DNA of 47,051 nucleotides from positions 1 to 47,051 of the forward strand of contig CALSCQ010001123.1 of assembly GCA_943704525.1 (NCBI GenBank), written 5' to 3'. The notes beneath the pieces were generated by a model. It was given only the letters and a program-made list of their open reading frames with translations. It had not been told where the DNA came from and did no database searches. The stretch comes from Pigoraptor vietnamica. Taxonomy: Eukaryota; Opisthokonta; Filasterea. Shown here in pieces: positions 5,347-45,000 of the stretch (position 1 is its first letter; each line of letters starts with the position of its first letter). The position numbers and the translations under genes are program-made.

Positions 5347-7860
5347 ATGGGGCGCGAGGACGACGCGCGTCGATGGGCCGCGGCGTCGCAGGCGGCGCTG
5401 CACGTGGCCGCACCGCCGGGCGCGCGCCTGGATGCCCTTAACGCGCAGGTGGTTGGGACAGCTCTCGACGACCTCATCGCGCTGCAGTACCCCCTCTCGC
5501 ACGTGACCGCGGACGAGGCCGCAGCGCTGCTTGTGCCCCTCTGCCGCCTGGTCTCTGCATCGCCAACTGCCGTGTCTGCGGCCGAGTTGGCGTCGTCGAA
5601 GGTCCTTCAGCTTGCCGCGGCGCTCGTGAACAGGCAGGGCCTCGCACAGCACGCGGCCGCCGTCGATGCCGTGCTCGATCTCGCCACTTCCCGCCTTCGC
5701 GCGCGCCACCACTGGCTCCTGGCGGATGCGCTGCGGGCCATTGGCGCCGTGGCCTACGACAACGCGCCGGCGTGCGCGCGTTACCTGGACGCCCTACTGG
5801 CCGAGTCGCACGGCGCTCTTCTCGCCCTCGTGCGCTCGTTCGGCGCAGACGCGGAGATCCGAAGACTGGCCGTTGCGTGCGCGGGCAGCTTGTGTGCGGG
5901 TGCGCCGCCGCAGCGCCTGACGCCGCATCTGCCCGGCGTCCTTTCTGCGTCGATTGCCAGCCTAGAGGACTGCGCGGCCGTGGCGCCGGGCGATGCTGCC
6001 GGTGGTCGGTTGCTGTGTGCCACGTACAAGGCGCTGCAGGCGGCGATCGCGGCTGCGCGGACCGTGCCGTCCCTGCCGACTGTGCTTGCGGCCGTGAAGA
6101 CGCACATGTTTCACGGTCTCGACGCAGCCGCCTCCGAGTCCCTGGGGTCGTCCTCCTTTGGACTGCCGCGCGAGACGAGCGCTCGGTACGATCTGCTTGC
6201 CATGCCCGCGAGTGCACGCCCACCCGCGGTCGAGCAGCTGCAGCAGGCGCACGGACAACCCGGATCTCCCGCGCAGGCGTCGTCGCCGTCGGGCCGTCGC
6301 GGTTCGGGTGCGCGTGGCCGTGCATCGCTGTCGGGTGCACCACGCGGAGCGGAGGGCGCGGAGGGAGAAGGGGGTGCGCTGCGCCTCAGCTCTGACTCGG
6401 AGGTGTCTGACCTCGGCGACTTTGGTCTGCGCGCGAGGTGTGTGGGCGGCCGTGTGTACATGTCCGTCGTGAACAACTTTTGTAGTAACAGCAGCGTATT
6501 TTCTTTTTCGATCTTGGTTCGTATTTCCTATATGTTGCGCCTTGCCTTCTGACGTGCAAGTTGCCCCTCCCAGGCCCGAACGCCTCGCCGCCTCGAAGGT
6601 GCGGCAGTGTGCGCTGCAGTGCTTGCAGGCGATTGCGAAGACGGCGCCGCGGAGAGACCTGCAGGCGTACTGGCCCTCCCTTGTCCCGGACAGCCAGCAA
6701 CCCACGCAGCGCACGCTCCTCACGTCCGTCCTGCACGACCCGAATCCCAAGGCACGCCTCGCTGCGCACGCCGCCCTCGCCGCCCTCCTCGACGGTTCGA
6801 GGCAATACCTTTCCGTTGCGTCCGAAGCAGCGACGCCGGCGGCTGCCAGTGCGCCGCGCGCGCAGGCCTTCACGCCACTCTCAGCGACCGTTGCGGGAAT
6901 GATCGACGCCCTCCATGCCGGTCTTGCGACGGCCGTTCGCAGCGAAGTGGCAAATGCGGCCTGCCTCGCACAGGCGCTGCGCACGCTCGCCGTGCTGGCG
7001 GCCAACGCACCCTACGACAGGCTGCGGCCGGGTCGCGCGGCGGCGTTGCTGAGCCTCGTGGGGGCACACACGGCACCAGAGGCGAACGGCGTCGTGCGTG
7101 ACGTGAATGTTCGAGTGGCTGCTCTCACGTGCATTGGCAGCGTGTTGTCGGCGCGGGGCTCCCCTCTTCCCGAGATCGCGGCGATGTTGTCGGGCGATGG
7201 CGCTGTCGTGAGTGCGCGGGGCGTTGCGGACATGCTTGCGGCGCGTGAGGCGGTGCCTCTGCGGGTGGAAGCGTGCCAGGTTTTGTGCGTCATGGCGCGC
7301 GGTTACTATGCGGCGACCGTCGCCTCGTGCTGGAAGGAGGCGCTCGCCGCGGTGCTTGGCTGCGCCGGCGACACGGACCCGACAGTGCGCATGTACGCAG
7401 TGCGCGCGATAGAGGAGATTGGGAAGGGTGTGCGTGCGGGGGACGCGCGGTCGGCGCCGGTGTACTGGGCCACTGCTCTCGACGCGCGCGTGACGGCGCT
7501 GCTTGGGGATCCCTCGCCGCTCGTGCGGGCCGCTGCGTGCGATTGCGTGTCGGCGATTGGCCAGGAGTGCTTTGCGGGTGAGTCGTCCGGGGATCCTTAG
7601 TGCGTTGACGGTGTCTCTGTTTCGAATCCGTGAAATCCTAATCTCTACGTCGTATTTGCTCTCTACTGACTTGGTCGCTACCTTTCTCCACTGGCGCAAT
7701 AGGCGTCCCACGTGACCGGGGGCTGCTCTGCATCACGCTTGTCCTCGGCCTCAACGACGACGAATCGCCCGTCGTGAAGGCCGCCGCCTGCCGAGCTCTC
7801 GGAGTCTTTGTGCTGTGGCCATCCTTGCGGGAGGTGAGACGGGAAACAGTGCGTGCGTGC

Positions 7861-10295: not shown

Positions 10296-13200
10296 ATGGC
10301 GCCGCCCGCGAATGGCGTGCACATTGTGCAGGCCGAGATCACGCTCGTGGTGACGTCGATGCGGCGCAACCAGCGCTGGTCGTCGTACCAGGGGGAGGAG
10401 CGGGATCCCATACTGCAGCGCTTTGCGGCGCTCAAAGAGCTGCTCACTGTTGCGACGGGTGAGGAAACAGCGGTGTTCGTTCTGTGCGTGTCTGTGTGTT
10501 GCGGGAATGGTGTGTGCGTGGCCCGTGTATCGACAGCATGTGTCCTCTCTGTCGGCGCATGGCCGCTCACGTGCACCGTCGCAGACCTGCACTCCGTCGA
10601 CATTGGCGATTTGATTGGGCCCTTTCTCGAGGTCATTCGGTCGGAGGAGACGACCGGGCCGATCACCGGCGTGGCGCTGTCGTCCGTCAATAAGTTTCTG
10701 TCGTATGGCATTCTGGGTGAGAACGCGCACTTGCCGCCTGCGGAGCAGTTCGTGGCGATTGTTTCGATTGCTAACTCGCTGTTGGCCGTGCGTGTAGATC
10801 CGGACTCGCCGCACGCGAGCCGAGGCATTCGCATGATTGCGGACGCCGTTACGAACGCGCGCTTTCCGGCGACTGACGCCGTGACGGACGAGGTCGTGCT
10901 CATGAAGATTGTGCAGGTGCGCCTCGGATGTGTATGGCTGTGGTAATGGCCTGTGGTGGCTGATAGTGTGGGCAAGTGTGTCTGTGCGTGTGCGTGTGTG
11001 GAATGCGTCTGGTGCAATGTGTTTGCCAAAAGTGCTTGAAGTGACACTGTTCCTTTTTTCCTTGTCCCACGCACGCGTGCAGGTGCTCCGAACGGTGCTA
11101 ATGACGCCCATCGGACGTCTTTTGAGTGACGACGCCGTGTGCGAGATGATGCAGACATGCTTTCGGATATGCTTCCAGAAGCGCCTCAGCGGTGCGTGGG
11201 CGACACAGTGTTCTGCGAGGGCACCCGCACTTTGCCCTCGCTTCTCGCGGTTTCACAATTGCGTTTGGCTCGTGTTGTTTCGTGCGTTACATGCACACGT
11301 GCACTATGGAAGACGTTCTCACTCGTCACGTGCGCGCACCCGTCGCAGAGGTCCTTCGGCGGTCGGCCGAGCAGACGCTCGTGGACATGATCCAGCGACT
11401 CTTCGGGAGGTGGGTCTGCGCTCACGTGATTTCGTGGCGCGCTGCCATACATGCATCAAACACGCACCTGATGCGTCCCCGTGTGCGCTTGTTCAGGCTC
11501 GACGAGTTTGTTGGGACGGACGCCGACGCCAACACGGCGTCGATATCCGCGGCGGCCCCTGCGGAGCCCGCTGCGGGCGTCCTCACCACCAGCGACAAGA
11601 CGAGCAATGTCCTGCAGCCCGCGCCGCAGCTGGGACACGCCGGCCTGGCACCGAACGCACGTGACTCTGGGTCTGCTGGTTCCCCGGCACCGCCTTCGGA
11701 GGCTGAGGCGGACGGCTACGACGTCGTGATTGTCGCGGCCGATGTGTCGTCGGACGGCGCGCAGCACTCGGAAGCTTCGGGCCCTCCCGTCGCGCACGTG
11801 TCGGCAGACGGGTCGTCGACGCCCGTGCCGCGGGCAGCAACGCCACTCGACGCGCCTGCTGCGCTGGACGATGCGTTTGTGAACAAGCAGGGCGTGCGCT
11901 TTGCGAACCAGGAGGCCCTCGCGAACGAGCTTGCCGAGGCCATGGAGCGGCCGCTGTCGAGCGCGTCGGAGGAAGAGCGCCCCTCGGTGCCGCACGGGCT
12001 GCCGTGCGTGCGCGAGCTGCTGCGGTTTCTCATTTCGCTAGCAGACATCACGGACAGGAACAACTCTGACGCCATGCTGCAGATGGGGCTGACGCTGATC
12101 ACGGTCGCTCTCGAGAGCGGCGGCCACTCGATCTCGCGCCACCCGACGCTCATGGACCTCGTGCGGGACCGCCTGTGCCGGTGCGCCTTCCGCCTGCTGC
12201 TGTCGGACTCTGTGCCACTGTTCCTGCTCGCCCTCCGCGTGTGCTTTCTGCTGTTCGAGGGACTGCGCGCGGGCCTCAAGTTCCAGCTCGAGTCGTTCAT
12301 CACAATACTCATGGGCCGCATCGGATCGCCCGACCAGCAACATCCGGGGACGCAGCAGCCCGCGAGTCGCACGCAGGCGCCCGTCAGCGGCGCGCCGTCG
12401 CTCACGGGCGTGTACGTCGGGCCCGTGGAGGTGCAGGAGCTCGCGCTCGACTGCCTCGTGCAGCTGTGCCGGATCCCGTCGTTTGTGGCCGAGCTGTACC
12501 TCAACTACGACTGCGACCTCTACTGCTCAAACCTCTTTGAGCTGCTTGCGAAATTTGTCTCGAAGAACGCCTTCCCCGCGCACGGCTCGCTCTACATGAC
12601 CCACGTGCTCTCCCTCAACGCGCTCCTCGCCGTCGTCGACTCGATCGAGGCGCGGTGCCACGACGCCAAAACGCAGCCTCGCCCCGGTGCCCTCGCCGCG
12701 CTTCACTCACTCGCCGTCGCCGCCAAGGACGCCCTCGCGAACGCGGCGGGGTCGCTTGCGTCGGTCACGCGCTCGGACAGCACCGATTCGTCACGGAGCG
12801 ACGCGCACGGTCACCCCGTGCTGAGGCGGCGCGTGTCGCGGCGGCTAGAGTCGTGCGGGCCGCCGTCGCTGGATCCCGACCACCTGCCGACACCCGAGGA
12901 ACTGATTGAGCACCGGCAGCGCAAGAAGCTGCTGGTGGCCGGCGCGGAGCAGTTCAACACGAAGCCGCGCAAGGGCATTCAGTTTCTGCAGGAGCACGGG
13001 CTGCTGACGGACCCCGTCGACCCCGTCGCGGTGGCGGACTTTCTCCGCAATAACCCCCGTCTGGACAAGAAGATGATCGGGGAGTACATTGGCGACAAGG
13101 CGAACCTCGAGGTGCTCCGCGCGTTCGTGACGTCCTTTGACCTCGCGGGCCTGCGCATTGACGAGGCCGTGCGGCTGCTGCTCGAGTCGTTCCGCCTGCC

Positions 13201-16200
13201 CGGCGAGGCGCAGATCATCGACCGCATCATCGAAGTGTTTGCGGACCGTTACTACACGCTCAACGCGGACTCGCACCGCAACATCGCCGACAGGGACAGC
13301 GCGTACATTCTCGCGTATGCCATCATGCAGCTGAACACGGACCAGCACAACCCGCGCGTGCGCCGCCCGATGACGCTCCACGACTTTATTCGCAACCAGC
13401 GCGGCGTCAACGCGAAGGGCGATTACCCACCGGACTTTCTCGAGCTCATCTACCACTCGATCCGCTCGCGGGAGATTGTGATGCCGGACGAGCAGGCGGG
13501 CGCCGTTCGCGAGGACTACCAGTGGCGCGTCATGCTGCAGCGCTCGGCGTCCCCCGCCGGCACGTACCTCGCCGCGCACTCGAGCGCCTACGACCAGGAC
13601 GTGTTCCTCCTCGCGTGGGGCCCTGCGATCGCCGCCATCTCGTACGTGTTTGAGACGGCCGTCGACGAGGCCGTGGTGCAGCGCGCGATCGCCGGGTTCC
13701 GCAAGTGCGCGGTCATCTCGGGCCACTATGGGCTGTGCGACGTCTTCGACAACCTCGTCATCTCGCTGTGCAAATTCACGTCGCTGCTCTCGCCGCCGCC
13801 GTCGTATGGGACGATGGCGGGTGCGGGCGGTCCGGGGGGTGCGGCCGGCGGGTCGCAGTGGCTGCTTGAGCAGACGGCGATCGCGTTTGGGCGCAATCTG
13901 AAGGCGCAGATGGCCGCGCAGACGGTGTTTGCCTTGACGCGCGAGTACGGTAACATGCTGCGCGAGGGGTGGAAGAACATTCTCGACTGCATGGTCCAGC
14001 TGTACCGCCTGCGCCTCCTCCCTCGCGCCATGCTCGAGGCCGAGGACTTTGCCGACCCGTCCGGCCGCGTGCCGCTCCAGCGACAGCGACAGCCCGCGGA
14101 GGCCCAGCGCAACCGGGGCGACTCGAGCCTCTGGTCCGCCATGTCATACTACCTCTCGCTGTCTTCCGAGCCCTCGGAAGAAACGCCTCCTGCCGACGAC
14201 GTTGCTGCGCGCGCGCGCGCGGTCGAGTGCGTGGCGCAGTGCCGCGTCGAGGAGCTTATTGCCGAGTCGCGGTTTCTCAGCGCAGAGTCGCTGCGTGAGT
14301 TTGTCAAGGCACTCGTGTTTGCGTCGCAGGGTCCTCTCGCCCACGCCGCGCTCGGCACGCAGTACGACGGCGACGCGGCCGTGTTCTTCCTCGAGGTGCT
14401 CGTCGAGGTGACGCTGCGCAACAAGGACCGCATCGACCTCGTGTGGGACACGGTCCGCGAACACCTCGTCGGCATTGCGACCTTGCAGCCTGCCTTCCAC
14501 CTGTCGCAGGCCATCGCCGCGCCCACGCCCCACCACGCGCACGGCCCGGCAGTGCACTCGGGCTCGCCGTCGCCAGAGCCGCAGCCCATGGTTGTGCTCA
14601 CCCCCTTGCCCCTCCCCGCGGGACCGCACGGATCGCAGCCGGCGCCGTCGACGTTTGCGGCGTCGTCGGCCGCCGCTGCGTCCGGGTGGCACGTGGAGCG
14701 CGCGGTGGTCGGCCTGCTCCGGATCGGCATCCGCCTGTTCCACCGCGAGCGCATGTCCGAGGAGATACTCGGTGCCCTCCGCCGCCTCGCAGCCGCCGGC
14801 CGAGCCCTCGAGTGGGAGGGCGTGCGGTTCCAGCTTGCCGCAGGGCTGCACGCGCTTCTCAAGGCCAACGGCGCGCTCATTCGCCGCGCGGAGGACTGGG
14901 AGACGGTGTTTACGCTGCTCGACGGCGCGCGGCTCAACCCGAAAGCCCGCGCGTCGGCGTTTGACTCGCTCGCCTACATCGTGGCCGAGGCCGATCACGT
15001 GCGCCGGTCGAACTTTGCGCTCTTTGTCGCCGCGCTTGGCAGCGTCGCGTTCATGGCGCCGCCCGCAGCACAGCAGACGACGCAGCCACAACCCGCCACT
15101 GTTGCGACCGGCGCCGGCGCACCGTCCAATGCGCAGCGCTCGCAATCGCCTGCCGTGTCGACGCCGCCGCCCCAGCACGGCGCACTGCACGCCACACACC
15201 CTCCCGGACACCCCACGCGGGAGGGCCATCCGGGCGCGCTCCATTCGCTCGTGCCTGTGCCGCTCTTGCTGGACGTGCTCGCCGTCCTGTACTCGCGCGT
15301 GCCGGCGCTCGCGGCGGAGGGCCCCGTGAAGCCCGAGGAGCTTGCGCGCGTGCAGCGACTCACCGGCGCGTCGCACCCGCAGGCGCAGCAGTCGTCGCCC
15401 GTGTGGCAGGTGTTCTACCGGCCGCTGCTCCGCATGATGGCCCAGCTGTGCTGTGAGCCGCGGCGCGAGAGTCGGCAGGCGGCGCTGACGCTGCTGCAGC
15501 GGTCGTTGCTCTCACTCGAGACAAAGGCGCTCGGTGCGCAAGACTGGGAGGCGTGCTTTGTCGAGGTGCTCTACCCGATGCTCGGGTGGCTGCTGGACCC
15601 GGCGCTGTCCGGTGGGTCGACTGTCGCGATAGTGCTGCTTCCCATGTGTTGCGTCCCCGTGCATTAGAGACAGTGTATTGCCAGCCCCTCTCAGCGCCCA
15701 TCCCCGGCTAACGCGTTACCCCGCGCAGCTGGCGATCCCGCGTCGATCGACGAGACGCGAATGCGCGCGTCTGCGCTCGTGTGCAAGGTGTTTCTCCTCC
15801 ACCTGAGCCCGCTTCTCGGTCTGTCGGGGTTCTCTCGCCTGTGGCTCCAGCTGCTCGACTACACCCACGTGTACATGCGCGCCGACAACAGCGAACTCTT
15901 GGTACGTGGTCCGCAATGTGTCCTCTTTTGCTTGCGTGCGGGTGCGCTAATAACCTTTGAGCTGAGCCCTTTATTTTCCACTACTGATCCTTTTTGTTTT
16001 TGACAACGCGCAGGCCGAGGCCATACTCGAGTCGCTGAAGAACATGCTGCTTGTCATGTCGACGTCCGGCATCCTCGTGGACCCGGACAACCCGTCCCCA
16101 CGCCGCCCCGTCGCCGGCGTCGACCTCGACCCCGCGCGTCTGGCCGAACTGTGGTCGGTCACGTGGTCGGGCATCGACAAGTTTTTGCCGACGCTGCGCG

Positions 16201-19975: not shown

Positions 19976-20424
19976 TCTGCCTCGCGCTGCCCCTGTGTCT
20001 CGCTGTTGCTGCGCGCGCGTTAATCTCTTCTCCTCGCACGCCCTCCTTCACAGCTGTTCTGCGCGCGCGTTAATCTCTTCTCCTCGCGCACCCTCCTTCA
20101 CAGCTGTTCTGCGCGCGCGTTAATCTCTTCTCCTCGCGCTGCCCCTGTCTCGCTGTTGCTGCGCGCGCGTTAATCTCTTCTCCTCGCGCACCCTCCTTCA
20201 CAGCTGTTCTGCGCGCGCACACTCTGCCTCTGTAACAGTCGCGTCAGAGCGCGTTATCCGTTTTTATGCTTCCGGGTTCACTCCATCAACGCGTAACACG
20301 ACTGTAACAGGCGCCAACATGCACTCTGCGCGTGTTGGGCCCAATCGCCCGTCTGCGTGTTCAGGAGAACGCCCTGCGACGTCTTTTGGCGCTGCGCACT
20401 CCACGCGCCGTCCGTCGCTTCCCT
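19976..20424. promoter_or_regulatory. Divergent promoter between the EEP gene and the cap methyltransferase gene
   Basis: The 449 bp between two divergent start codons. Its left half is a 50-bp minisatellite (next entry) lying directly upstream of the EEP start codon, so it would form its 5' UTR or core promoter. The right half (20220-20424) is less repetitive and has no clear TATA box. Confidence 0.55.
19981..20219. repeat. 50-bp minisatellite, four full units plus partial ends
   Basis: The block GCGCGCGCGTTAATCTCTTC recurs at 20011, 20061, 20111 and 20161, exactly 50 bp apart, with partial copies on both sides. Each unit ends in one of two tails: type A with CCTCCTTCACAGCTGTTCT (units 1, 2 and 4) or type B with CCCCTGTCTCGCTGTTGCT (unit 3 and the partial copy before unit 1). 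Units of one type are nearly identical. Confidence 0.97.
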
Positions 20425-22451
20425 ATGGACTCTCAGGGCGACGAAGAGGCGCTCCTTCGCACGATGGGGCTGCCCACTTCGTTTGCCGCAACGCAGCGCG
20501 GAAGGCGCCCGCACGCACGGCGACGCGAAGACGCAGTGAACGACGACGGCAGTGGAGGGCGGAAGAAGCGCAGGCACGCGGACGTGGACGATGCCGCTGG
20601 CGTGCGAGAGGGAGATGGGGGTGCGCTGCTCATAGCATGCGGCCATCGACACAGTTTGCAGCCGTCCGCGGACCATGAGGAGGGGGCCGTGTTTGTCACG
20701 AGCCCGCCTTGCCAGTACGAAGGCGCGCCGTGGCTCTGGTACTCGGCCGTAGATCATGCGCTGGACCTCAACGCCGTCCGCGCAATTCCCTGTCTCACGG
20801 AAAGTGTTGAGGCTGTGCTGCGTGTGCCATTGTGCGACCCCGACTTGCTCGCACGCGTCGCGGCGGCCAAAGAAGAGTTCCACGCCGCCGCGGAGCGCCA
20901 CTCGACGCGCGTGTTCTACAGGGCACGTGACGAGGCGAATCCGTTCGAGTCCCTGGGCAGCGGCCCCTTCTGCAACCGCGCTGCTCTGAAGCTAGCCGTC
21001 ATCGACCATGTGGCCGCACTCGGCGATCGCGCTGCGGTCGAGACGCGCGAGGCCTCGGCGTGCGGCGGGCGTCCATTGCCTCCTTCCTCTCACCTTGTAA
21101 CAAAGAGTCAGGCGGAGGACGCCCCATCGCTGCCTGCACAGAGGGGCGAGGGCGGGAATACTGACGAGACATATCCTGCTGTTGGCACGCCGAATGGGAC
21201 GTTTACGTTCGTGGATCTCTGCGGGGGTCCCGGCGGCTTCACCGAGTATTTGTTGTGGCGTCACGGCCGTGCGAATGGCCCCGATGCGGGCGCGAAGCAT
21301 CCAACGGCGTCGCAAAAAGTGCGTGGGTGGTGCATGTCGTTGCGCTGCGAGGGGTGCGATTGGGACGTCGCGGCGATGAAGGCGGCGAGGGAATTGCTGT
21401 CGTCCGTCCACATCACGTACGGCGCGGATGGGACGGGCAATGTCTACTCGCGGACGAACGTGGACGAGCTAGCACGGCTCGTGACAGAGGGCACGGCGGG
21501 GAAGGGCGTCCACGTCGTCGTGGCCGACGGCGGGTTTGAGGGGGCGCGCGACAGGCACGACCAGGTGACTGGTTCAGACGTGCGGCCGCATCATAGGCTG
21601 TTTTGCTTTGCATTCATTTGGTAGCTTGTGGTCGTATTCGTTGCCTTATGCTCTTATGTCACTCTGCGTGGTTGTCGTCGCGAATCGACTGGCTGATTTT
21701 TGTGCGCCTCAACTGCTGCCACGCGGTGGCACAGGAGGCCGCCACTTTCCGAATTCTCGTGTCGCAGATCGCGGCGGCACTGCGCTGTTTGGGACGTCGC
21801 GGCGATTTCGTGTGCAAAGCGTTCGATCTCGTCACGCAGCGAAGTGCGTCGGTGCTATGGATCCTCTCGCGACTGTTCGAGACAGTGTCTATCGCCAAGC
21901 CTGTAACGAGTCGCCCGGCCAACTCGGAGCGTTATCTTGTCTGCAAGGGGCTTGTGGCCGACAGCGACACGTGCCGCGGTTGCGCTGAGCGGCTCTTCGC
22001 GATCGGGGAGGCGTGCGGTGCTGGCTGCGATGCTCTTGCGGACGGTGCGGCGGAAGCTGAACGAATTGCCGCCGTGGTGGATCCGATTGTTTTGGCGAAC
22101 GACACCCCCTTTCTTGAGTTCGTCGTTGGAGCGAATGCAAGGTGGGGGAATCGGCGGTGCGGCTATGTGTGTTGCATTCAAGTTCACTTGGTCTGTTCGG
22201 CCATTGACAGGGCTTTCTGCGCGCTACTGCATTCTTAGTCAAGAGTCTACTCACTCAGCGTCTCAGTCCCACTTCTTTCAGTTCGTTATGTTTCACCTCA
22301 TAGCTATTAAGTGTATGCCGTCCAGTTGCTCCCCTTGTATGGCGGCCGCTGACTGGATTTCTCGTGGCGCAGGTTGTGCCAGCAGCAGTTGGAGGCGTCG
22401 CACGAGCTCGTTTCGAAACTGGCCCAAATTACTGCGGCGGAGGCGATATAA
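20425..22451 (+). CDS. CMTR1: Cap-specific mRNA 2'-O-methyltransferase (CMTR1-like, FtsJ fold)
   Basis: Three exons (20425-21564, 21735-22141, 22373-22451) give 541 residues. The Rossmann methyltransferase core matches CMTR1: ANPFESLGSGPFCNRAALKL with the first catalytic Lys (K189), SAM-binding DLCGGPGGFTEYLLWR (D264), the catalytic Asp in VVADGGF (D368), FVCKAFDL (K408), and KPVTSRPANSERYLVCKGL with E445. The complete K-D-K-E tetrad indicates activity: transfer of methyl to the ribose 2'-O of the first transcribed nucleotide (cap 1). The N-terminus has a basic stretch (KKRR) that may be a nuclear signal and an MGLPTSF motif. ATG 20425 is the first in-frame ATG. Human CMTR1 also carries G-patch, guanylyltransferase-like and WW domains; these are absent, so the protein is a catalytic core form. 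CMTR2 is less likely because only one methyltransferase fold is present. Confidence 0.88.
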
Positions 22452-25826: not shown

Positions 25827-28800
25827 ATGGCCGTGAGGATGGCGCCTGCGGACGAGCTTCCGCACAAGCTTAGTCGCGATGAGCTCGAGGAGGCCTATAT
25901 GCGCACGCGAGAGGAAAACAGGGCGCTGAAGGTGGCCGCGCGCGAGCAGGAGGACAAAATGCGACGGTGAGGCAGGCGACAGAGGCGCTTTGGCCGTGCG
26001 AAGTGTGTGTGGGATTGAGATAATTTTGTCTAGCTGGCGTAGTCACGCATGTTAAGCAACAAACGGTGACGGTGGTTGTATGCGCAGAATGGCGACGAAA
26101 CTGCTGCGACTGACGGCGGACTTGAAGCGCCGCGAGGGCGACGGCGCACACCCGCGCGGTGGCGTGACAATGAAGGACCTTCGCGCTGGCGAGGAGGCGG
26201 ACGAGCTGCGGCAAAAGGTGGCCGAGCTCACGCGGCAGAACGAGAACCTCAAAGGGAAACTGCTCCTCGCGCGGGAACAGGCCGGCGCCGCCACGTCTGT
26301 TGCGAAGCGGAAGCCGCTGGGAGTGCGCGCCCAGCCGTCGCAGCCGCACTCCCCGGCCATGTCGGCGGGGGCCACGGCTGCGGCGAGCGAGAGGGTGGCT
26401 GCGCTCGAGGCCAGCAATTCGCAGCACCGGGCCGCGCTTGTGTCGCTGCGTGATCAGCTTGAACGTCAGCGCGCCGAGCACGAGGCGTTGATGCGCGATC
26501 GGGTGGCGAAGATGCGGAACGAGTTTGACGTGGAACTGCGGGTGCAATTGTCACGACAGCGCGCGGAATTCGACGCCGAGTTGCAGTCGCTGACGGAGGG
26601 CCTGACGGGCGCGCAGCAGCACGACATTGAGCTCATTCGGCTGCAGCGCGACTTGAAAGACAAGTCGTCGCGGCTGCAGGCGCTGACGGACCGCTATGCC
26701 GCGGCCGAGGGAGAGCTGGCCGCACTGCGAGAGACGCACGCGCAGCTGATGGACCAATGCGACCGCCTTAGCGAAGAGCTGCGTGGCGAACGCGTCGTCC
26801 GCGCAACACTCGAGGCGCACGCCAAGTACCAGAAGCAGTCGGAGAAGTCGACGGCCGAGCTCAACGAGATTATCAAGGCAAGTGGCAATCAGTGGCAATT
26901 GCGGCGCTCAATCGTGTGCAGTGTGCCGCAATCGATGTCTGACGGCGCTTTGGTCACTGCAGGACCTGCGTGCGGAGAAGGCGCTGCTGGAGCAGGAGAA
27001 CGACCGCCTCAGTCGCACGGTGCTCGACGATGCCCGCGAGCGTTCGCACAAGGACGCCGAGGCGAAGCTGCGGCAGAAGATTGCCTCGCTCGAAGCTACC
27101 ATTCGCTCCGATCTGGCCGACAAGCAGTCGCTGTTGGACCGGCTGGAGGAGGAGAAGGTGGGATTGTGGTTGCCCTGTGTCTGCGAGCGCGCATGCTCTC
27201 GTGGATAGCCGCACATGCGTACGTGCGCGTGTTGGCCGTGCGGGTCCGCGACGGTCTAACTGTATTTCTGTGACAGACGGCGTCGGAGCGCCTTCGAACG
27301 GAGAAGAAGGAGGTGACGATTGCGCATCTGGAGCTGAAGCAACAGCACGAGACGCTCATGGAGAAGGTCCGCTTCATCACGCGCGAGTCGGCCGTCGATT
27401 TCGACGAGGTGGAGGAGGCCCTTGCGATCGTGCGTGCGCGCAAGGACCGCGCGGCGACGAAGCTGCCGTTCCTGCACCCCGTGGACGACCGCCCCGCGGA
27501 CCCCATGCGGGAGTTGGAGCAGTTGCGCGACTCGCACGCGGGAACCGCGAGGGAGCTCGAGAACACGCGGCGGCTCCTGTCAATTCAGGTCCGTGGGCGT
27601 TTGCAGTGGCTTGTGCTTGCGGAGCGGTGCAAGTGTGTGTGGCTGACTCGCGTTGAGTTGCGGTTTGAGTCTGATTTGTTCATTTTTCGCCCTTCTTTTC
27701 TGTGCCGCGCAGATTGGCCTTGTGAAGACGTACAAGGAGGACAAGGAGGAGGCCGCGGCGACCCTCCAGCGCACAATCGCCGAGTACGAGCGCCGGCTGA
27801 GCGAACAGGCGCGGCTGCTGGACACGCGCGCAGCCCGCATCAAGAAGCTCGAGGCACAACTGAAGGACGTGGCTTACGGCACCCGCCAATACTCCGTCAC
27901 GCGCGGTGCTGTGGGCGCGGACGAGGACGACTCGCTGGCGGCCGTCTCGATCAACGACGATAACGCCGACACCGTGTCGACGGTAGAGCTTGAGCGCGGG
28001 CAGAATTTGTTCGAGATTCACGTGGGCCGCGTGGCAATGTCGCTGGCTTCCCTGCAGTCGCTCGGCATCGTGCACAGCTCGTCCGAGGCGGGCACCATGG
28101 CGACGTTTGTCACGTACGACTTTTTCGAGTTTGAGACGCAGACGACGCCCGTGGTCGTCGGCCTTGCGCCGGACTTCAACTTTACGTCGCAGTACGTGGT
28201 GGAGGTGGACGACTTCTTTCTCAGGCATCTGCAGAAGGAGCCGATGGGGTTCGATCTGCACACTGCCTATGGCGCGGACTACCGCACCGTCGGCACATGT
28301 CAGGTGCGTGTTGCCTGTTCCTAATGCCGTGATAGGCGCCTGCGGCATGTGCTGTTTGCTGAAGACGTGCAATGGCAGGTTTCCTTCCGGGACATTCTGG
28401 AGCGGCAGGGGCGGCTCACGTTCACTGCACAGTTCGTGAGCATCGGTGAGTCTCTCTCTCTTACATAGGGGTGTTCCTTGCACAGTCGACGGACCAATCG
28501 CGCTCTGATTTTGGCTATCCGACATCCGTGCATAGTGACCTATTCCCTGAGATTTATTGCAATGGCTCACCATACGCTGCCTTGAGCCCACGCAGACGAC
28601 CCCACGGTGGTTGTCGGCACGCTCGAGTACTGGGTGCGCATGTGCCTCCCAATGGACCAGGCCCTGCGGCTGTTCAAGGAGCGCACCAAGGCGCTGGGCT
28701 ACATCGACCCCTCGCAGGCCCGGGGCGCCGCCAGCACCCTCGGCCTCGCCCCGCCGCAGCAGGAGGCTCGCCAACTCTACGTCTCTGTGCTGCAGTGCCG

Positions 28801-35125: not shown

Positions 35126-35797
35126 AGTTCGTCTTGCGCTAGCATGCCTTGTCCAGCTGAATGGAACCGGAGTGGCCCTAATTGCACGCGATGCTGAGCT
35201 CAATGTTATTTTTATAGGGCACGATGGCAACATAGTGTTAGGCCACTGCGCTTCCCCAGCGTACGCGCTCTGCACCGAGGCCGCGGCACGGTATAGTTGC
35301 ATTATTCCGCTACCATGCGGTACTGTCCTCCATGCGGACAATCCCGCGGCGGTTTTGGCGGCGCCAGTACAGCCGGCTGGGGTCGCGACTGGAGTTATGC
35401 ACACCTTCATTGTCGGATACCAATTCGTCTCGATCGATGTACCGTTTCCTGGGTGAACCCTTTGGCTTCGTATTTCGAGCCTAATCGTTCGCGTTGTGCG
35501 TGTTTACGTTATTGTCCCTGACTGCGAGTGCGAGGTAACAGGGCCCCGACTCTGATTGGTCGCGATCATGGCCGGACACAAAATTTTTTCGGAAGTTCCG
35601 GCGCAGCGAAACGTCGCACTTCTGGCAGCCGAACCTCGCGCATACTGTATATGCTTCCTTCCGTGCAATGGCTTCATTGGATCATCTCTGAAAAGCAACG
35701 ACTCATTCGACGCCTTATCGAGAATTGCGCTGTCTTCCCCGAGTCGCGGCTGATTAGACGAACTACCGAGAACTGCCCAGATTGCCGCCGGACGGAA
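35126..35797. promoter_or_regulatory. NTF2-like 3' end and aminotransferase promoter/5' end
   Basis: About 670 bp. No domain was recognised in any frame. An ATTGG (reverse CCAAT) sits at 35555-35559. The frame of the aminotransferase is open upstream to 35651 (ATG) and carries a duplicated 32-nt segment (35699-35730 and 35747-35778) encoding RLIRR..ENC twice; this may be coding or 5' UTR. Confidence 0.45.
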
Positions 35798-37628
35798 ATG
35801 CCTCTCGCACACACAAAGCAAGCGGTCGCCAAACCGGCTTCGACGATTCCATCGACTTTAGCCGTGAAAGGGCGGGTGCTCAATACGTATCGCAGCAATC
35901 CTGATGTGCAACGCGCAGCATTGCGAATTGCCCTTCGCGCCGAGAAAGATGCCGAGGAGGACGACACGGAGTTTCGGCGCGCCGCAGCGCACCACGAGGG
36001 CCTCCAGACGTTCAAAAACTGGCTTGCGACCATCTCACCCGAGAAAACCATGATGCACGCGGCAGCCGACGAGATCCACCTCGGCTTTGGCCTTCCCGAC
36101 GACACGCTCCTCGGGCTGGGACTGGAGGCGCTGCGGGTGGCTGCGGACATTCGCCTGGTTGGTGCCGCACTGGCTATCCCCCCCTCCCCGCTCACAGACA
36201 CACACATACTCTCTCTCTCTCTCACCCATATTTGCAATCATAACGGGCCCATTCACCACCTTACCCTCCCCTTCCCATTGCAGCGGGAACCAGAGGCGTG
36301 GGCGCTCCTCGAGTATGGACCGCAGGAGGGCGACGCCGACTTTCTGCGGTCGCTGGCCGCGTACCTCACGCAGCAGTACGGCTCCATGGTGCAGAGGTAC
36401 GTTCGCAATACCTTTGATTTCAATGGAACCGGCGCCTCTGACATTCGGCGCCGCACCACAGCGACCACCTCATCGCCACCAATGGCGCGACGGCAGGCCT
36501 TGCATTCATCTGCCAGCAGTTTGCGCGGACTGGAAGCACCGTCTACGTCGAAGACCCGACCTTCTTCATAGCGTTAGACATGTTCCGCGAGTTTGGGCTG
36601 CGGGCGGTGCCCATCGAGTGCGACGACGAGGGCGTTTCTGTCGCCGCACTAGAAGCGCAACTTGCGAGCGACGCTGCCGACGGGGCGCTCAAGGAGTGCG
36701 CGTTCGGCTACGCAGCGCTCGTGTACCTCATTCCGACCTTCCAGAACCCAACGGGCCGCGTCATGTCCGACGCGCGCCGTCGCGCCATCGCCGGCTTCGC
36801 AAAGGCGAAGGGCCTCCTCGTCGTGTGCGACGACGTGTACGACTGCCTCGCATACATCGAGGGCGGCCGCGCCACTCTTCCACCGCGCCTTAGCGAGTAC
36901 GATCCCGAGGGACTTAACGTGATCTCGAACGGATCGTTCTCAAAGGTCGGTTGGTGCGACGTGGCAGCCCGTCACACGTGACTCACTCTGACGCATTCAC
37001 TCACACAACGACACACCATGACAGCTGTTCGGGCCGGGCCTGCGCCTCGGATGGATGGAGAGCGGACCGCACCTCCGCTCCATCATGCTCAACAGGTGCG
37101 TGAACGTCTCCGGCGCAGAAGACCTCCCCTGTTGCTGTAAACACGCCACGTATTAGCTCGGGTACCTACGATGTGCGCACTCACACCCCTTACCTTGTCA
37201 CTCCCAGTGCCTTCCTCAACAGCAGTGGGTCCATGAACCACATGACGAGTGGCATCCTTCAGGCGGCTATGGCATCGGGGCTTGCCGGCGAAGTCTTGAA
37301 CCTCCACCGGTCCGCGTACGCGGCGCGTCGAGAGGCGCTTCTCGGCGTGCTTCGCGACGAGCTGCCGCGGGAGTGCGATGCGTCCTCTGCACCGGGGGGC
37401 ATGTTCGTGTGGGTCCGCCTTCCCGAGAACGCGTGCGCGGGTGCGCTGCTGCAACTGTGTCTCGCCAAGTACCACGTGCGCTTCCAGCCCGGCATCCTCT
37501 TCTCTGCGGCGCACCGTTTCGGCAACTGCGCCCGCCTTTCATTTGCACCGTACCCACGGTCGACGGTGGCCGAGGGCGCGCGTCGCTTCTGTGCCGCCGT
37601 GCGAGAGTATCTCGCCGGAATGCAGTGA
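35798..37628 (+). CDS. PLP-dependent class I/II aminotransferase
   Basis: Five exons (35798-36157, 36284-36396, 36462-36945, 37025-37095, 37208-37628) give 482 residues. Fold-type I motifs in order: IHLGFGLPDD, LEYGPQEGDADFLRSLAAYL, ATNGATAGLAFICQQF (PLP phosphate region), YVEDPTFFIALDMF, YLIPTFQNPTGRVMSDARR (substrate and PLP contacts), CDDVYDCLAY (Asp for the pyridine N, Tyr for O3'), SNGSFSK-LFGPGLRLGW with Schiff-base K319 as the last codon of exon 3, and RLSFAPYP with the carboxylate-binding Arg. The layout is that of the aromatic/2-aminoadipate aminotransferase-like family with fungal and bacterial MocR-like relatives. The true substrate is unknown. The start is uncertain: ATG 35651 is in frame and would add 49 residues. 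The first donor (gttggt) is weak. Confidence 0.87.
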
Positions 37629-37845: not shown

Positions 37846-38892
37846 ATGGACAACCCCGCACCCGTTCTGGGCATCGCGAAGGTGAGGCAGCCAAGGCAGC
37901 ACTTTCGAGATGGCGGTGAAGAATGTGCATCAGTCAAGTTCGTATTATTATTATTGAGCGAAGTGCGGCGTCAACTTACGCTCAAAGTTTGCCGTCTTAT
38001 TTGGTCAGGCACGGTACACGTACGCACCCACAGTCGCGCCTGCCGCTGGCGCGCGCACTGCCCTTGCGCCGCTGGCGACGCTTGGCAGCATTCCGCCTCT
38101 GCCCCCTCACCTTCCCGCGCACGGAGTCGCTGCGTGGACCCAATTCGCACCGCCGCTCTCAATCGCACCGGACGGTGCTGTCGCTGGTAACGTACCCATC
38201 GCGCCCAATGGCCCTGCCCCGGTGCCTCTCGTGTCACAGTCTCGCAAGCGGCCCGCGTCCGATGTCATTATGCTCGACAAGAAGGAGAGGTGCGGTGCCC
38301 AGCGCGGCTGCGCGTTGTTCAGTCGCGTCTGTCCGAGGTGGTGTTATGTGGAGTGACCTCTCTGGGGCACTGTTAACACTGACTGGACTTCCTGATGGTC
38401 GCTACTGCACCGTGCTTTATGCGGGCCAAGTAATCTGAGTCCACTTTCTTTCACACCTGATGCGCTTTTAGACGCCGACTGCGCCACAATGCGTTTGAGA
38501 GCAAGCGGCGAGAGGAGCTCGGCAAGTGCTTTGACCGGCTCGCAGCAGTGCTAGAGACCCAGACAACGCTTGTGCGCGATGCGACGAAGCCGTTCAAGAA
38601 CTATCTTGTGCTGACTGCCGCCGACATCATCGAATCACTTGCGCGAGACAACGAGTGGGTTTTTCCTGCACTTCTAAGCCTTTCTGTGTGCGTAGAGAGG
38701 GGGAGGGGATAGCGGGAGAGAGGGAGCGAGAGAGAGGAATGACGCCTCGCTTTCCGGCTAACACAACACGTGCGTTCCTGCACACGTGCTCTAACTCTTT
38801 GGATGCGGGGACACACACGCACACCCACCCACCCGCGCATCCATCCACCCACCCACCACGCATACACACGCACACACACGCACACACACACA

Positions 38893-38939
<47 letters not shown>

Positions 38940-40984
38940 ACTCACTCTGTAGTCTCACGACGTAAGCGCATTTTCCCACGCGCACGTTCAATCATGCACG
39001 CGTGTTTGATTGGGAGCGTGCGTGGGCTTTGGCATACATTTCTTTTATTTTCTGCTACAATTCCGTTACCGACCGTTCGCTTAATTTTCGTTTCATTCAC
39101 GCCAGGGCTCTCCGCGCAACTGTCGCTGACCTCGAGCGCCGCATGGAATTGCTTGATCCAGTTAGTGCACTTCTATGCGATCCTCCTCTCTTCAATTCAC
39201 CGCCGCTCGCCTTCGGTGACGACACCGAGGACATTTTCAAGGCCCTTGGTGCGTTATCTCTGTTCGTGTGGGTGGGTTTCACGCACTTGTTTAACTGATT
39301 GTTTGCATGACGCAGGAATAGGCAAGGAGGATGACACCATCTCGAAAAATTTTGTCGGCATCGTGGTACGTGTTGTGCCTTGCTTCGATGCTGAAGTCTT
39401 CGTCAGTGCTTATCTGATGTGTTTTTACCGCCTGTGGGCAATTATGACGTTTCTTGCACTCGCCAACTATTCTGCTGCAGCTCCAAAACGGGAAGCTGTA
39501 TATGTTCGACCGCATTGACCCTGGGTATCCGGCGCCCGTTACCCCCGCGAAATGGCCTGGCGTGTTCGTTGGCGGTATCGATGCGGCATTACAGTGGGGT
39601 CCTAACAGGACGCTGTTGTTCTCGGGAGAGCAGTATTCGATTTACGATATGCAGGTGGGCCCATCTCTGGCACCATTTTGTACTCGCATGCCTTCGAACT
39701 GACAGGGGATCCGCGCCTGGCGTCCCTTTGCAGGAGGACCGCGTGGAGCCTGGTTACCCTCGCCTGATTTCAGAAGGATTTCCAACACTTTCGTTTAGGC
39801 GATTGGACGGCGCTGTTAATTGGGGGAACGGCAAGGCATACTTCTTCTTCAACGGATACTATGTGCGGTATGTGCCTCCCACGCACAATCCGTGATCACT
39901 GGAACTATCTTTCTACGTACTTCTTATCTTTGAAAGAACGGATTTTTCCTCGCTTGCGAAATTTCGAACCTGTATCAATCGACATGTTGGCATTGTCCTG
40001 TCTTTCGTTGCTGCACAGTCACGCCCTAACTCCGACGCCTTTGTGGCTGCGCAGTTACGACATTGCCGCAGACCGGCAAGACGAAGGATATCCACGCCTC
40101 ATCGCTGACGGGCAATGGAATGAGATGCTTGCCCTTTGCAACGGTCTTACTATGTCGTCAGTACGCTGGCCCGTGTGCTGGAACAACGGCCGCGCTTATC
40201 TCTTCAACAAGGACGGGACGTATATCAGGTATTGGTTGTTGCCACTGCGTGGTGTCCGACCCCTCAGTTTGTGCTGACGTGTTGCCTGGCGCAGGTACGA
40301 TCTGGCCAACCTCAAGCTTACGAAAGTAAGCCTCCAAGAATGGACATCCTACCAACGTATTGTGCAGTCAAAGGGTGATGCGCAGCGAGGGCGGACTGCT
40401 GCTGGTGAGCTGAATCGTTGTCAGTGCTGGCTGTAAGTTCTTAAAGTTGACTAATCTAATTGTTGCGGTCTCTGCTGTGAATTTATTGCAGCTGTTGGTG
40501 CTTGGCTAAGTTCCGTGGGTCTGGGCGACTGCGTTGCATGCATCATGCGTGAAAAGGTCACTTTCGATGACCTCAGGAATATGGTGCGTTTCAAACTTAC
40601 ACTGTGCGTAATTCACACCAGTCTGATCAGCGCTGCGTAAGGTTCTATTGTAATCAGTTTACAATCTGCGTCCTTTTGCTAACGTGCATGTTACTGCGCA
40701 GTCCGATGCCGACTTGGAGCACATAGGCATTGCAGATCCCTCTGCACGTGTCACGATTCTGCAAGCTGCTCGTGATGGGCTGTTTCCTGTGCCGCCGCCA
40801 TTGGACAACGACTCAGCGCGTTCGTAAGTCGATCAATCATGCGCGGCCGACTCTGTCTGATGTCTCGGCCGTGTTCAGTTCCCCGGCACGACGTCCGGCG
40901 TCAGACGCGACTCGCGGAAATGAATGGGACGGGGGCCTGGCTCCCACGCCAGTAGTCACTTCACTGCGCCACGTCAGCCACTGA
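37846..40984 (+). CDS. bHLH-leucine zipper protein with hemopexin repeats and a SAM domain
   Basis: Twelve exons (37846-37881, 38009-38289, 38472-38654, 39106-39248, 39316-39365, 39481-39654, 39734-39867, 40055-40228, 40295-40404, 40492-40583, 40702-40823, 40879-40984) with all phases agreeing give 534 residues. Residues 13-95 are Ala/Pro-rich. A bHLH basic region follows, RRRLRHNAFESKRREEL, with H111, E115 and R119 in the E-box contact spacing, helix 1, a loop, helix 2 (TAADIIESLARDNEAL) running into a short zipper to about 180. Residues 232-410 are hemopexin-like blades: DPGYPAPV/GGIDAAL, VEPGYPRLI/FFFNGYYVRYDIA, DEGYPRLIADGQW/AYLFNKDGTYIRYDL. A SAM domain (about 429-487, WLSSVGLGDCVACI...LEHIGI) follows, then a disordered tail. 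There is no signal peptide. If the last intron is retained the frame ends at 40827. I know of no described protein with this architecture. Confidence 0.85.
38805..38945 (+). repeat. CA/CT microsatellite in intron 3 of the bHLH gene
   Basis: A CA/CCCA-rich run passes into a pure CT run (about 38894-38934) within the 451-nt intron 38655-39105, the longest of this gene. Confidence 0.9.
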
Positions 40985-41568: not shown

Positions 41569-42033
41569 ATGCGTCTGCGCATTCTCCTGGCGATTGCGCT
41601 GGTCGGCGTGGGCGCTGCGTTCGCGCAGTACCCCGACGACAGCAGCGTCGACGAGGACTCGGACGGCGGCGGCCTTGGCTGGGTCATTGTGGACCGGCAC
41701 GACAGACGGGATCGATGGCGCCGTGGGGTCGACCGGCCCCGACTCCCCGAATGGCCAGGCTGGTGCAACCAGGACGACGTGGACTGTCGCCGCGAAGAGC
41801 AAGTCGTTCTCTCCGAACACGCTGTTCATTGTCGTCGGCGACACGGTGAAATGGACGTCGCTGAAGGCCGGAGGCCACAACCGGTGCGGCAGATCACGTC
41901 GCTGTCGAAATGCGGTTCGAACAAGAGCGGGGGGTTCTCGAGTGGAAGCGCGGGCGCTGTCGACACGTTTTCGATGGTATTCAACACGGCAGGGACATAC
42001 CTTTACAAGTGCGACGTGAGTGTCCGCGCATAG
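41569..42033 (+). CDS. Cupredoxin-like secreted protein, reading frame disturbed
   Basis: From ATG 41569 a clear signal peptide (MRLRILLAIALVGVGAAFA, cleavage before QYPDD) leads into an acidic stretch. An intron from 41683 or 41689 to 41758 (ggccag acceptor) restores the frame of WTVAAKSKSFSPNTLFIVVG, DTVKWTSLKAGGHN, the first half of a cupredoxin with the His ligand. Near 41885 the coding signal shifts frame without a plausible intron; it continues as ITSLSKCGSNKSGGFSSG, then FNTAGTYLYKC with the Cys ligand, and stops at 42031. The usual His and Met after the Cys are missing, although FVMVCGTAVA in another frame just downstream looks like the last strand. Cupredoxins bind copper for electron transfer. 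This copy is decayed, carries sequence errors, or is joined to the next gene in a way I cannot resolve. Confidence 0.5.
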   Translation: MRLRILLAIALVGVGAAFAQYPDDSSVDEDSDGGGLGWVIVDRHDRRDRWRRGVDRPRLPEWPGWCNQDDVDCRREEQVVLSEHAVHCRRRHGEMDVAEGRRPQPVRQITSLSKCGSNKSGGFSSGSAGAVDTFSMVFNTAGTYLYKCDVSVRA

Positions 42034-42053
42034 ATTACGCCTCCGGATTTGTC

Positions 42054-45000
42054 ATGGTGTGTGGGACAGCCGTCGCGGCCAAGGGCGGCGCTGCACATGT
42101 ACAGGCGAAGGGAGCGGCCGCGAAGGCACCTGCGGCGGCGCCTGCGAAGAAGCGGCTGCCGTGGGAGAGGGACGAGGATGAAGAGGAGGAGTCGGACGAA
42201 GACGACGACTCGCGCGATGACCCGCGCGGAACGGGCCCTGCGCCAGCCAAGGGCTCGGCCGCGCCCGCAAAGACTGCGCCGGCGGCAGTGGCGTCTAAGG
42301 GATCTGCACCTGCAGCGACGAAGCGCATGCCGTGGGAGAAGGACGCGGGCGATTCCGGGGATGACGACGCATCGGACGACTCGCGGGGGGATTCGCCCGC
42401 ACCGCGCGCGCAGGCGAGAAAGGGAGCGCCCGCGACGACAAAGGAGACGCAGAAGGGCGTGACCGCCGCGAAGAAGAAACTCCCTTGGGACAAGGACGAG
42501 TCGTCGGACGAAGAGGCGCCCGCGCAGCCCGCATCCAAGGGCGCGAAGGCCGCAGTGCCGGCTGCGGGGAAGGACGGTGCGAAGGGCCCCGCTCCAATCG
42601 AGGTACCCAAGGCGGCAGCTGCGGCGGCTCCCAAGAAGCAGCCGTCGCTGGACAAGGGCCGGGACGACAGCATCGACGACGTTCTGTCGGACGACAACGC
42701 CAGCGAGCACTCTGAAGAAGATTCGCCGGACGCGCTCGTGCCCAGGCGCGCAGTGCCGTCGAAGGGTTCGGCGCCCGCGCAGAAGGACGCCGGCGTTAAG
42801 CCTAGCGCTGCGCCCGCACCCACACAGAAGGACGCCGGTGCCAAAACGAGTGCGGCCGCACCCGCACAGAAGGACGCCGGCGCCAAACCGAGCGCTGCGC
42901 CCGCGCCCGCCGCGAAGCAGCCGCCCTCGCGCACCGCCAGTCGAGGCGATGAGAGCGACAGCGACTCGGTCGTGGACTCCCCGCGCACTTCACCCCCGGC
43001 CGCACGCGCGGTTGCAAAGAGTGTCCCTGCCGCTGCGCCTGCGTCGACGCAAGCGGCCGCCAAGCCCGCGTCGACGGCCACACAAAAGGCGACACCTCGC
43101 CAGGACAGTGCCACGGAGGCGCCTTCCGGCGGCACCGGCGCTTCGGCGGTGAAGGGCCCGTCTGCGCAGGGCAGTGGGTTGCAGCCGCCCGCTGTCATGC
43201 CGAGGCAGTTTTTTGAGCCGACTGTGGAGCGTGGCGACATCTCGGACTCGTTTGACAGGTGCGTTGGGTGTTTACTGTGCGTGGCGCTGGTAGGACCGTT
43301 TGTGGCCGCCGCTCGTTGTGCAATCTTCCCGCTGCTTCTAATTCTTACCGTCCTCGCGCTCTCTATGCATGCGCGTGCGCTGACGATGACTCTCTCTCTT
43401 GCCGCAGCGACAACGACGACGGCGCGCCTGTCGAGCTTTCGCCGGCCATGTCGAAGGGCGTGGAGGCGATCGAGAAGGCGAAGCAGTCGCTTGCGCAGGC
43501 CAAGAAGAGCCCTGCGCCAGCGGCCGCGCAACCCGTGGAACCGCAGGGTACGAAGGAGGGGGCGGGCGCGGCGAAGAAGGCGGCGGAGACTGCAAAGGAG
43601 GCGCCGAGGAGTGACTCCCCGTCGCTTTGGGATTCAACGGAGGAGGATAGCGCACCTGCGGCTGCAGCTCCAAAGGGAGGGACCGCGCTTGCCGTGGAAC
43701 GGGCGGAGAAGGAGAGGGTCGAGAAGGAGAAAGCGGAGAGGGAGAGGCTCGAAAAGGAAAAGGTCGAGAAGGAGCGACTGGAAAAGGAGACGGCGGAGAA
43801 GGAGCGACTGGAAAAGGAGAAAGCCGAGAAGGAGAGGGCGGAAAAGGAGAGGCTCGAAAAGGAGAAGGCGGAGCGAGAGAGGCTGGAAAAGGAGAAGGCG
43901 GAGAAGGCCGCGCCCAAAAAGGGCCCCGCACGCGAGGAGACGCCGTCGCCGTGGGAATCGAGCGACGACGACTCTGCGCCGGCTCCCGTTTTCGGAAGCG
44001 GAGCGAAGGGGCTTGCCGGGCAGAAGGACGCCGGCGGCGCGTCCGGATCGCGGTACTCGGACATTCTCGCCGCGAACAAGGAGCTTCTTGGACGCTCGGG
44101 CGCCAACCTCAGTGCCGACGACCTCCCCGCGAAGGCCGCGGCGCCGTCCAAGTCTCTTGGTGCGCCTGCAGCCGCCGCCCGCGGTGAGCCGAGCACCGGC
44201 GAGATAACTCCCGGCCTGCCGACGGGCTCTGACATTGACGAGGACGTCGACTTCTCCGCGGGGAGTGACGACGAGGGGTACCGCCCGTCCGCCGGGGGCC
44301 CGGCACCGGCGCTCCCCCGCCGTGTCGAGAGCCTGCATGCGGGTGGCACTGCGCACGCACCGGCGCCATCCCGCGCCCCCGAGCCCCTCGCCGAACGGCG
44401 CGGGCTCCGCGACGTATCGCCCCTCCCCAGTGGTCACGTGGCACCGCTCGCGCCTCTTTCGGGACGCGCGGGTTCCGATGTGGATCTCACGGGCCGCGGT
44501 GCCGGGCGATCGCCGCGACTGGCGCCTCTCACCGCCGGCAGCCCTCGCTCGGCTAGCCCGGCGGGACGAAACATTCCCCCGCTGCAGTCGCCACCGGCGG
44601 CAACGGACCTGGCGCCGCTCCCGACGCATGCTGGCGTGGGCGCTGGCGCCGGTCGTCCGGGACAGCCCACATCGCTGCTCGGTCTGCGCACGTCGAGCGA
44701 CGCGGAGGCGCACGATCGCGACGTCGCACGCACTCGCGGCGCCGGTGAACGCCAGGCGTCCGTTGGGTCGTCCGGTGGGCGGCAGTCCTCGGTCGCATCA
44801 TCGGCCGATCGGTCGCACTCTGCGGATGCGCCCGTGTCACGGCAGGGGACGCTGGACCGCGCGGGCTCTGAACGGGAGAGCGAGAAGAAGGGGGAGCGCA
44901 CGCCGCCCGTGGACAGCGCCGCGACTACCGCACCCGCGACGTGACAATCGACCATGTCGCGTCAGGTGACGGACGCCGTTGCGCAGCCGCACGCCGCCGC

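Follow-up and report, generated by a model that had tools for sequence, protein, structure and literature searches.

Transcription factors in which a bHLH is joined to an added regulatory domain are known. Closest to the protein described here are the bHLH-zipper factors of group B (USF, MAX and MYC), which have the same His, Glu and Arg residues in the basic region, a helix-loop-helix (HLH) and a leucine zipper, and USF2 and MAX provide its nearest bHLH chains in the PDB. Our protein differs from this group in that its HLH match lies under the Pfam cut-off, and we know of no hemopexin propeller or SAM domain in USF, MAX or MYC. The bHLH-PAS factors of group C likewise place a possible sensor or dimerisation domain after the bHLH, but in our protein a propeller stands in place of PAS and a zipper is added. 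Hemopexin propellers have been known from secreted, seed and bacterial proteins. The MMPs, the seed albumins LS-24 and DC25 and bacterial repeat proteins all share a PF00045 match over the cut-off with our protein, whereas the latter is fused to a DNA-binding domain and has a degenerate blade 1 and channel. Nuclear MMP3 resembles the factor proposed here in that its hemopexin domain acts in transcription; MMP3 itself is a protease that is secreted but also has a nuclear role, and it is not known to contain a bHLH. Finally, aureochromes (LOV-bZIP) unite sensor and DNA binder in one protein (PMC7670200 and PMC11174801), as the present factor might, but the latter has another candidate sensor and a bHLH in place of the bZIP, and a LOV-bHLH-SAM gene of the same genome (C281, see below) offers the closer comparison to them. 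What is new here, as far as the searches below reach, is the domain combination.

The gene in question is located on the + strand of the window, by which we mean the whole stretch of 47,051 bases that was analysed (contig C450; G+C 52-71% in 2-kb steps), and the genome assembly scanned alongside it comprised 32.5 Mb in 1395 contigs. The twelve exons (Table 1) follow one frame to the stop codon, giving 1605 bases and 534 residues, and all 11 introns, of 55-451 bases, run from GT to AG. On the 5′ side, an in-frame stop precedes the ATG, with no other ATG in between. Retention of an intron would introduce in-frame stops in 9 of the 11 cases, the exceptions being introns 1 and 5, whose lengths are not divisible by three; the splicing of intron 5 is a prediction. 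The claim of an earlier note that twelve exons with agreeing phases are present was thereby borne out, and its view of one gene and one protein gained support from the same domain order in a second gene, described below. As modelled from the sequence, one gene encodes a bHLH-zipper, hemopexin and SAM protein.

Table 1. Exons of the bHLH-hemopexin-SAM gene and other genes in the window
Feature	Position	Strand	Basis or remark
DUF4042/HEAT protein	6542-7597	+	Pfam
GBF1 (Sec7) gene	11192-15664	+	one open frame
FtsJ-like methyltransferase	20332-21621	+	Pfam
GAS (growth-arrest specific), weak match	26080-27270	+	20.4 bits, below cut-off 32.3
PLP-dependent aminotransferase exons	35528-37628	+	by eye; directly upstream of the bHLH-hemopexin gene
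Exon 1: start codon	37846-37881	+	open frame and splice sites only; with exon 12 the weakest, without homology support
Exon 2: Pro/Ala-rich N-terminal region, basic stretches RKR (91-93) and KKE (103-105)	38009-38289	+	
Exon 3: basic region (H111, E115, R119), helix-loop-helix, zipper L162	38472-38654	+	
Exon 4: zipper L169, L176, L183 and linker	39106-39248	+	
Exon 5: linker end and first strand of blade 1	39316-39365	+	
Exon 6: hemopexin propeller, blade 1 (shortened) and beginning of blade 2	39481-39654	+	Pfam
Exon 7: blade 2 end, blade 3 start	39734-39867	+	Pfam
Exon 8: remainder of blade 3, blade 4 start	40055-40228	+	Pfam
Exon 9: blade 4 end and onset of the SAM match (residues 427-428)	40295-40404	+	Pfam
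Exon 10: SAM domain, first part	40492-40583	+	SAM_1 427-483
Exon 11: SAM domain, second part	40702-40823	+	Pfam
Exon 12: C-terminal tail and stop	40879-40984	+	open frame and splice sites only; without homology support
Secreted-looking, perhaps cupredoxin-like protein	about 41570-44200	+	by eye; downstream of the bHLH-hemopexin gene; runs on into a long Ala/Lys/Asp/Glu-rich region

Among the neighbouring genes, GBF1 gave 1745 database matches, and in the 120 that were listed the species shown were animals, with 46-48% identity. Pfam returned no match for the one frame searched in the putative aminotransferase region.

In the bHLH-zipper part, Pfam HLH matched residues 107-135 at 18.1 bits (E 0.0025), under the cut-off of 20.7. 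The basic region keeps H111, E115 and R119, which are common to the C250 protein described below and align to USF2 and MAX; we take these to be the E-box-type basic residues of group B bHLH-zipper proteins. Leucines L162, L169, L176 and L183 are spaced seven apart after helix 2 and form the zipper. When the bHLH-zipper stretch alone was compared with the PDB, USF2 (E 0.0039), USF (0.054) and MAX (0.10-0.24) were matched with an alignment running through the basic region, and three unrelated chains (a designed protein, CG11900 and CREB) fell in a like range of 0.012-0.29; with the whole protein, USF2 was a weak match (0.077). The N-terminus is Pro/Ala-rich and has basic clusters at 91-93 and 103-108.

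Pfam Hemopexin (PF00045) matched the protein at 70.6 bits (1e-19; cut-off 21.3), with two stretches significant on their own, and gelatinase A and other MMP hemopexin domains were matched among solved structures (best 1.5e-20). Four blades were recognised by eye and pattern. Blade 1 is 12 residues shorter than in C250, the channel Asp-Ala/Gly at the blade start is present in two of four blades as compared with all four in C250, the channel Asp of blade 4 being among those lost; GYP is absent from blade 4 in both genes. Throughout the propeller (residues 223-412) there is no His, and neither of the two Cys stands before a Pro. A haem-sensing transcription factor is expected to provide His or Cys-Pro as haem ligands, and haem sensing via propeller histidines was ruled out for this copy, as none are present. 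No signal peptide was seen by eye. SAM_1 (PF00536) matched residues 427-483 at 33.3 bits (6.4e-8; cut-off 23), and the whole protein matched the ANKS1A SAM construct among solved structures (3.4e-7).

The profile searches thus placed both the SAM domain and the propeller named in the earlier note over their cut-offs, whereas HLH stayed below in the window copy; by eye and pattern the propeller has four blades where at least three had been claimed. Its canonical bHLH accordingly stands as to the three basic-region residues, the zipper and the HLH of C250, which is over the cut-off, but not as to the HLH score of the window protein itself. The nuclear location that it proposed is in keeping with the basic stretches, which by eye are fit for nuclear import.

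A genome search with the window protein gave matches outside the window on contigs C250 (two), C911 (three) and C321 (one). The C321 match, to the SAM region, was considered as a third family member and dropped as a chance match, being by eye a histone stem-loop binding protein. The C250 gene, on the minus strand, encodes at least 539 residues in twelve modelled exons up to the contig end, with a GC donor in one intron, and the model breaks off there ahead of any SAM. Its protein consists of the basic region RRLNHIALEQKRRQE, an HLH, a zipper and then hemopexin repeats, with Pfam matches to HLH (37.1 bits) and Hemopexin (73.2 bits) that are both over the cut-off, and it is 36% identical to the window protein, with the same order of bHLH, zipper and hemopexin. 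The bHLH-zipper-hemopexin join therefore stands in two separate genes, and C250 is the strongest evidence that this predicted join is real. Moreover, C250 was the best match (77; next 59) when the window bHLH was compared with 22 other bHLH stretches of the genome, the C250 stretch being longer than most. A profile of the two genes matched the MMP14 hemopexin domain (2.2e-15), MAX (6.8e-8) and the ANKS1A SAM construct (6.6e-7) in the PDB; its bHLH part leans on C250 and its SAM part comes from the window protein alone.

The two genes probably go back to a single fusion before duplication, although two separate fusions may have given rise to them. None of the 11 window introns shares its codon position with an intron of C250; three of them (at the basic region, at blade 1 and in blade 4) are three codons away from a phase-matched C250 intron, an agreement that is compatible with common origin but need not reflect it. 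The linkers and N-terminal regions showed no likeness beyond chance between the two proteins (346 of 2000 and 136 of 500 shuffles were as good).

A search of 5.8 billion proteins with the window protein, in which 8000 candidates were scored, listed 69 matches, all of which carry PF00045 and for none of which PF00010 is listed. A search with C250 residues 236-400, from the bHLH to blade 1, turned up 144 database proteins with words in common, none of which scored; either search can find only relatives of similar length that have short words in common. Among the 69 listed, the top hemopexin scores belonged to unnamed repeat proteins from metagenomes or bacteria, and MMPs of insects and others scored lower. 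For the window propeller, 20 of the 69 (best 403) outscored C250 (325), and the C250 propeller likewise preferred database proteins (best 452). These scores speak against the two propellers being closely related, although the comparison leans towards the database proteins, since those are whole, repeat-rich and often longer. A search of NCBIfam gave two matches only, far below the cut-off. The combination of bHLH, hemopexin and SAM, for which the earlier note knew of no described protein, was found neither among the 69 listed matches nor in the literature searched, which consisted of titles and abstract openings of mainly open-access journal papers.

In a bHLH tree of 23 rows (the window, C250 and C911 copies together with 20 of the 24 genomic HLH matches), which was mostly unresolved, window and C250 were not joined, and the window branch was the longest (4.27). 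They were not joined either in a hemopexin tree of 54 rows, consisting of 51 of the 69 database proteins and three from the genome; the other 18 were left out, as their best match covered an insufficient part of the profile. Here C250 grouped with P0010, a metagenomic protein (97/88); the window copy formed a long branch, being one of four rows flagged as long. When window and C250 were held together, the AU test did not reject the arrangement (p 0.493), and the constrained tree scored 0.38 higher.

A PF00045 scan of the genome matched only C911 (twice) and missed both bHLH-hemopexin genes, so that such scans undercount. Likewise, the 24 HLH, 26 SAM and 28 PAS_9 matches of the genome scans are lower bounds because intron-split domains are missed, the HLHs of window and C250 included. 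On C281 (3978-821, minus strand), an eight-exon model of 657 residues comprises a LOV-type PAS, a bHLH and a SAM (PAS_9 52.6, HLH 53.4 and SAM_1 57.9 bits). Its LOV motif reads GRNCRFLQ, the cysteine of which we presume to be the LOV cysteine by role, and its nearest solved structures are miniSOG and aureochrome1-like LOV (about 3e-21). As a candidate for a light-controlled bHLH factor, this gene is perhaps more striking than the bHLH-hemopexin gene. C62 (11392-10230, minus strand) has a LOV-like frame containing GKNCRFLQ and, downstream of it on that strand, a SAM that by eye closely resembles the C281 one; no bHLH was seen between the two. The minus strand of C911 carries a bHLH stretch (HLH 45.4 bits) upstream of a separate hemopexin gene (120.5 bits, four stretches), whose product looks by eye to have a signal peptide, repeats of EGF- and HYR-like type and a membrane segment; a bHLH-hemopexin fusion could arise from such neighbours. 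In addition, C241 contains a bHLH-PAS gene in one frame of 505 residues (HLH 58.1 bits; PAS_3 87.2 bits in two stretches), and MYC-like and SREBP-like genes were seen by eye. This genome thus shows several combinations of sensor, bHLH and SAM modules. According to PMC5064789, bHLH groups C (bHLH-PAS) and F are holozoan-specific. Taken with the animal matches of GBF1, these bHLH genes point to a holozoan genome, probably that of a single-celled organism.

We consider it reasonably probable that the window gene encodes an E-box-type bHLH-zipper factor with a four-bladed propeller that would dock nuclear partners and a SAM domain, one of at least two bHLH-hemopexin genes in the genome. From its residues we infer that the protein would dimerise via HLH and zipper, that the basic region of the dimer would bind an E-box, and that the factor would act in the nucleus. 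Its DNA binding may be weakened, given the HLH score under the Pfam cut-off and the longest branch in the bHLH tree. With lower confidence, the propeller may serve as a docking platform for other nuclear proteins, by analogy with nuclear MMP3, and, also with lower confidence, the SAM domain might add self-assembly or partner contact. According to PMC3885614, the hinge and hemopexin-like part of MMP3 are needed for NF-kappaB binding in the nucleus, and a review (PMC5554797) states that MMP3 transcriptional activity requires the hemopexin domain. Docking is favoured over haem or ion binding because the window propeller has no His and only two of four channel Asp; on account of these channel defects and the MMP3 precedent, we place docking first, ligand gating second and decay third.

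Conceivably, the propeller could instead bind haem, a polyamine or an ion and thereby control dimerisation or DNA binding, much as PAS and LOV domains do, a possibility we rate as rather doubtful. According to PMC6934871, a seed hemopexin-fold protein binds porphyrin (an analogue), LS24 occurs with spermine bound and ions occupy the channel in some of the related seed proteins, but the channel of DC25, the protein examined in that work, contains only water. Such gating would fit a genome that joins bHLH to LOV and to PAS. The earlier note had proposed that the propeller senses a small molecule; for the window copy this found no support, in view of the missing His, the incomplete channel and the shortened blade 1, and sequence alone names no ligand. 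Ligand binding is more plausible in C250, which keeps all four channel Asp, so that the C250 propeller might bind a ligand while the window copy is the poorer candidate.

The long branches of the window copy in both trees, together with the 12 residues lost from blade 1 and the two missing channel Asp, could also point to a decaying or dominant-negative relative of C250 that would still dimerise while the old job of its propeller is lost. We regard this as unlikely, as the twelve exons are open and in frame, and the E-box residues and zipper are intact. Finally, it is most improbable that two adjacent genes or an assembly join were misread as one: intron 5, which precedes the main hemopexin exons, lacks an in-frame stop and C911 does show a bHLH upstream of a separate hemopexin gene on the same strand, but the order is identical in C250, exon 5 contains no Met, the first Met of exon 6 (M239) lies within blade 1, and exon 9 runs from the propeller into the SAM domain.

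A hemopexin propeller occurs on a bHLH in two gene models of one genome, which suggests that this fold was drawn into gene control. Taken with the LOV-bHLH-SAM gene, it points to bHLH factors having acquired several sensor or docking domains in this relative of animals, and such joins bear on the origin of the bHLH-PAS factors. More tentatively, and with considerable doubt, a lineage of single-celled animal relatives may have built one-protein receptors that lead from signal to DNA by setting varied modules, such as the hemopexin propeller and LOV, on a bHLH with or without a SAM domain, the bHLH-hemopexin members being ligand-controlled. If this is true, ligand-controlled bHLH-hemopexin factors would constitute a receptor class absent from the literature searched.
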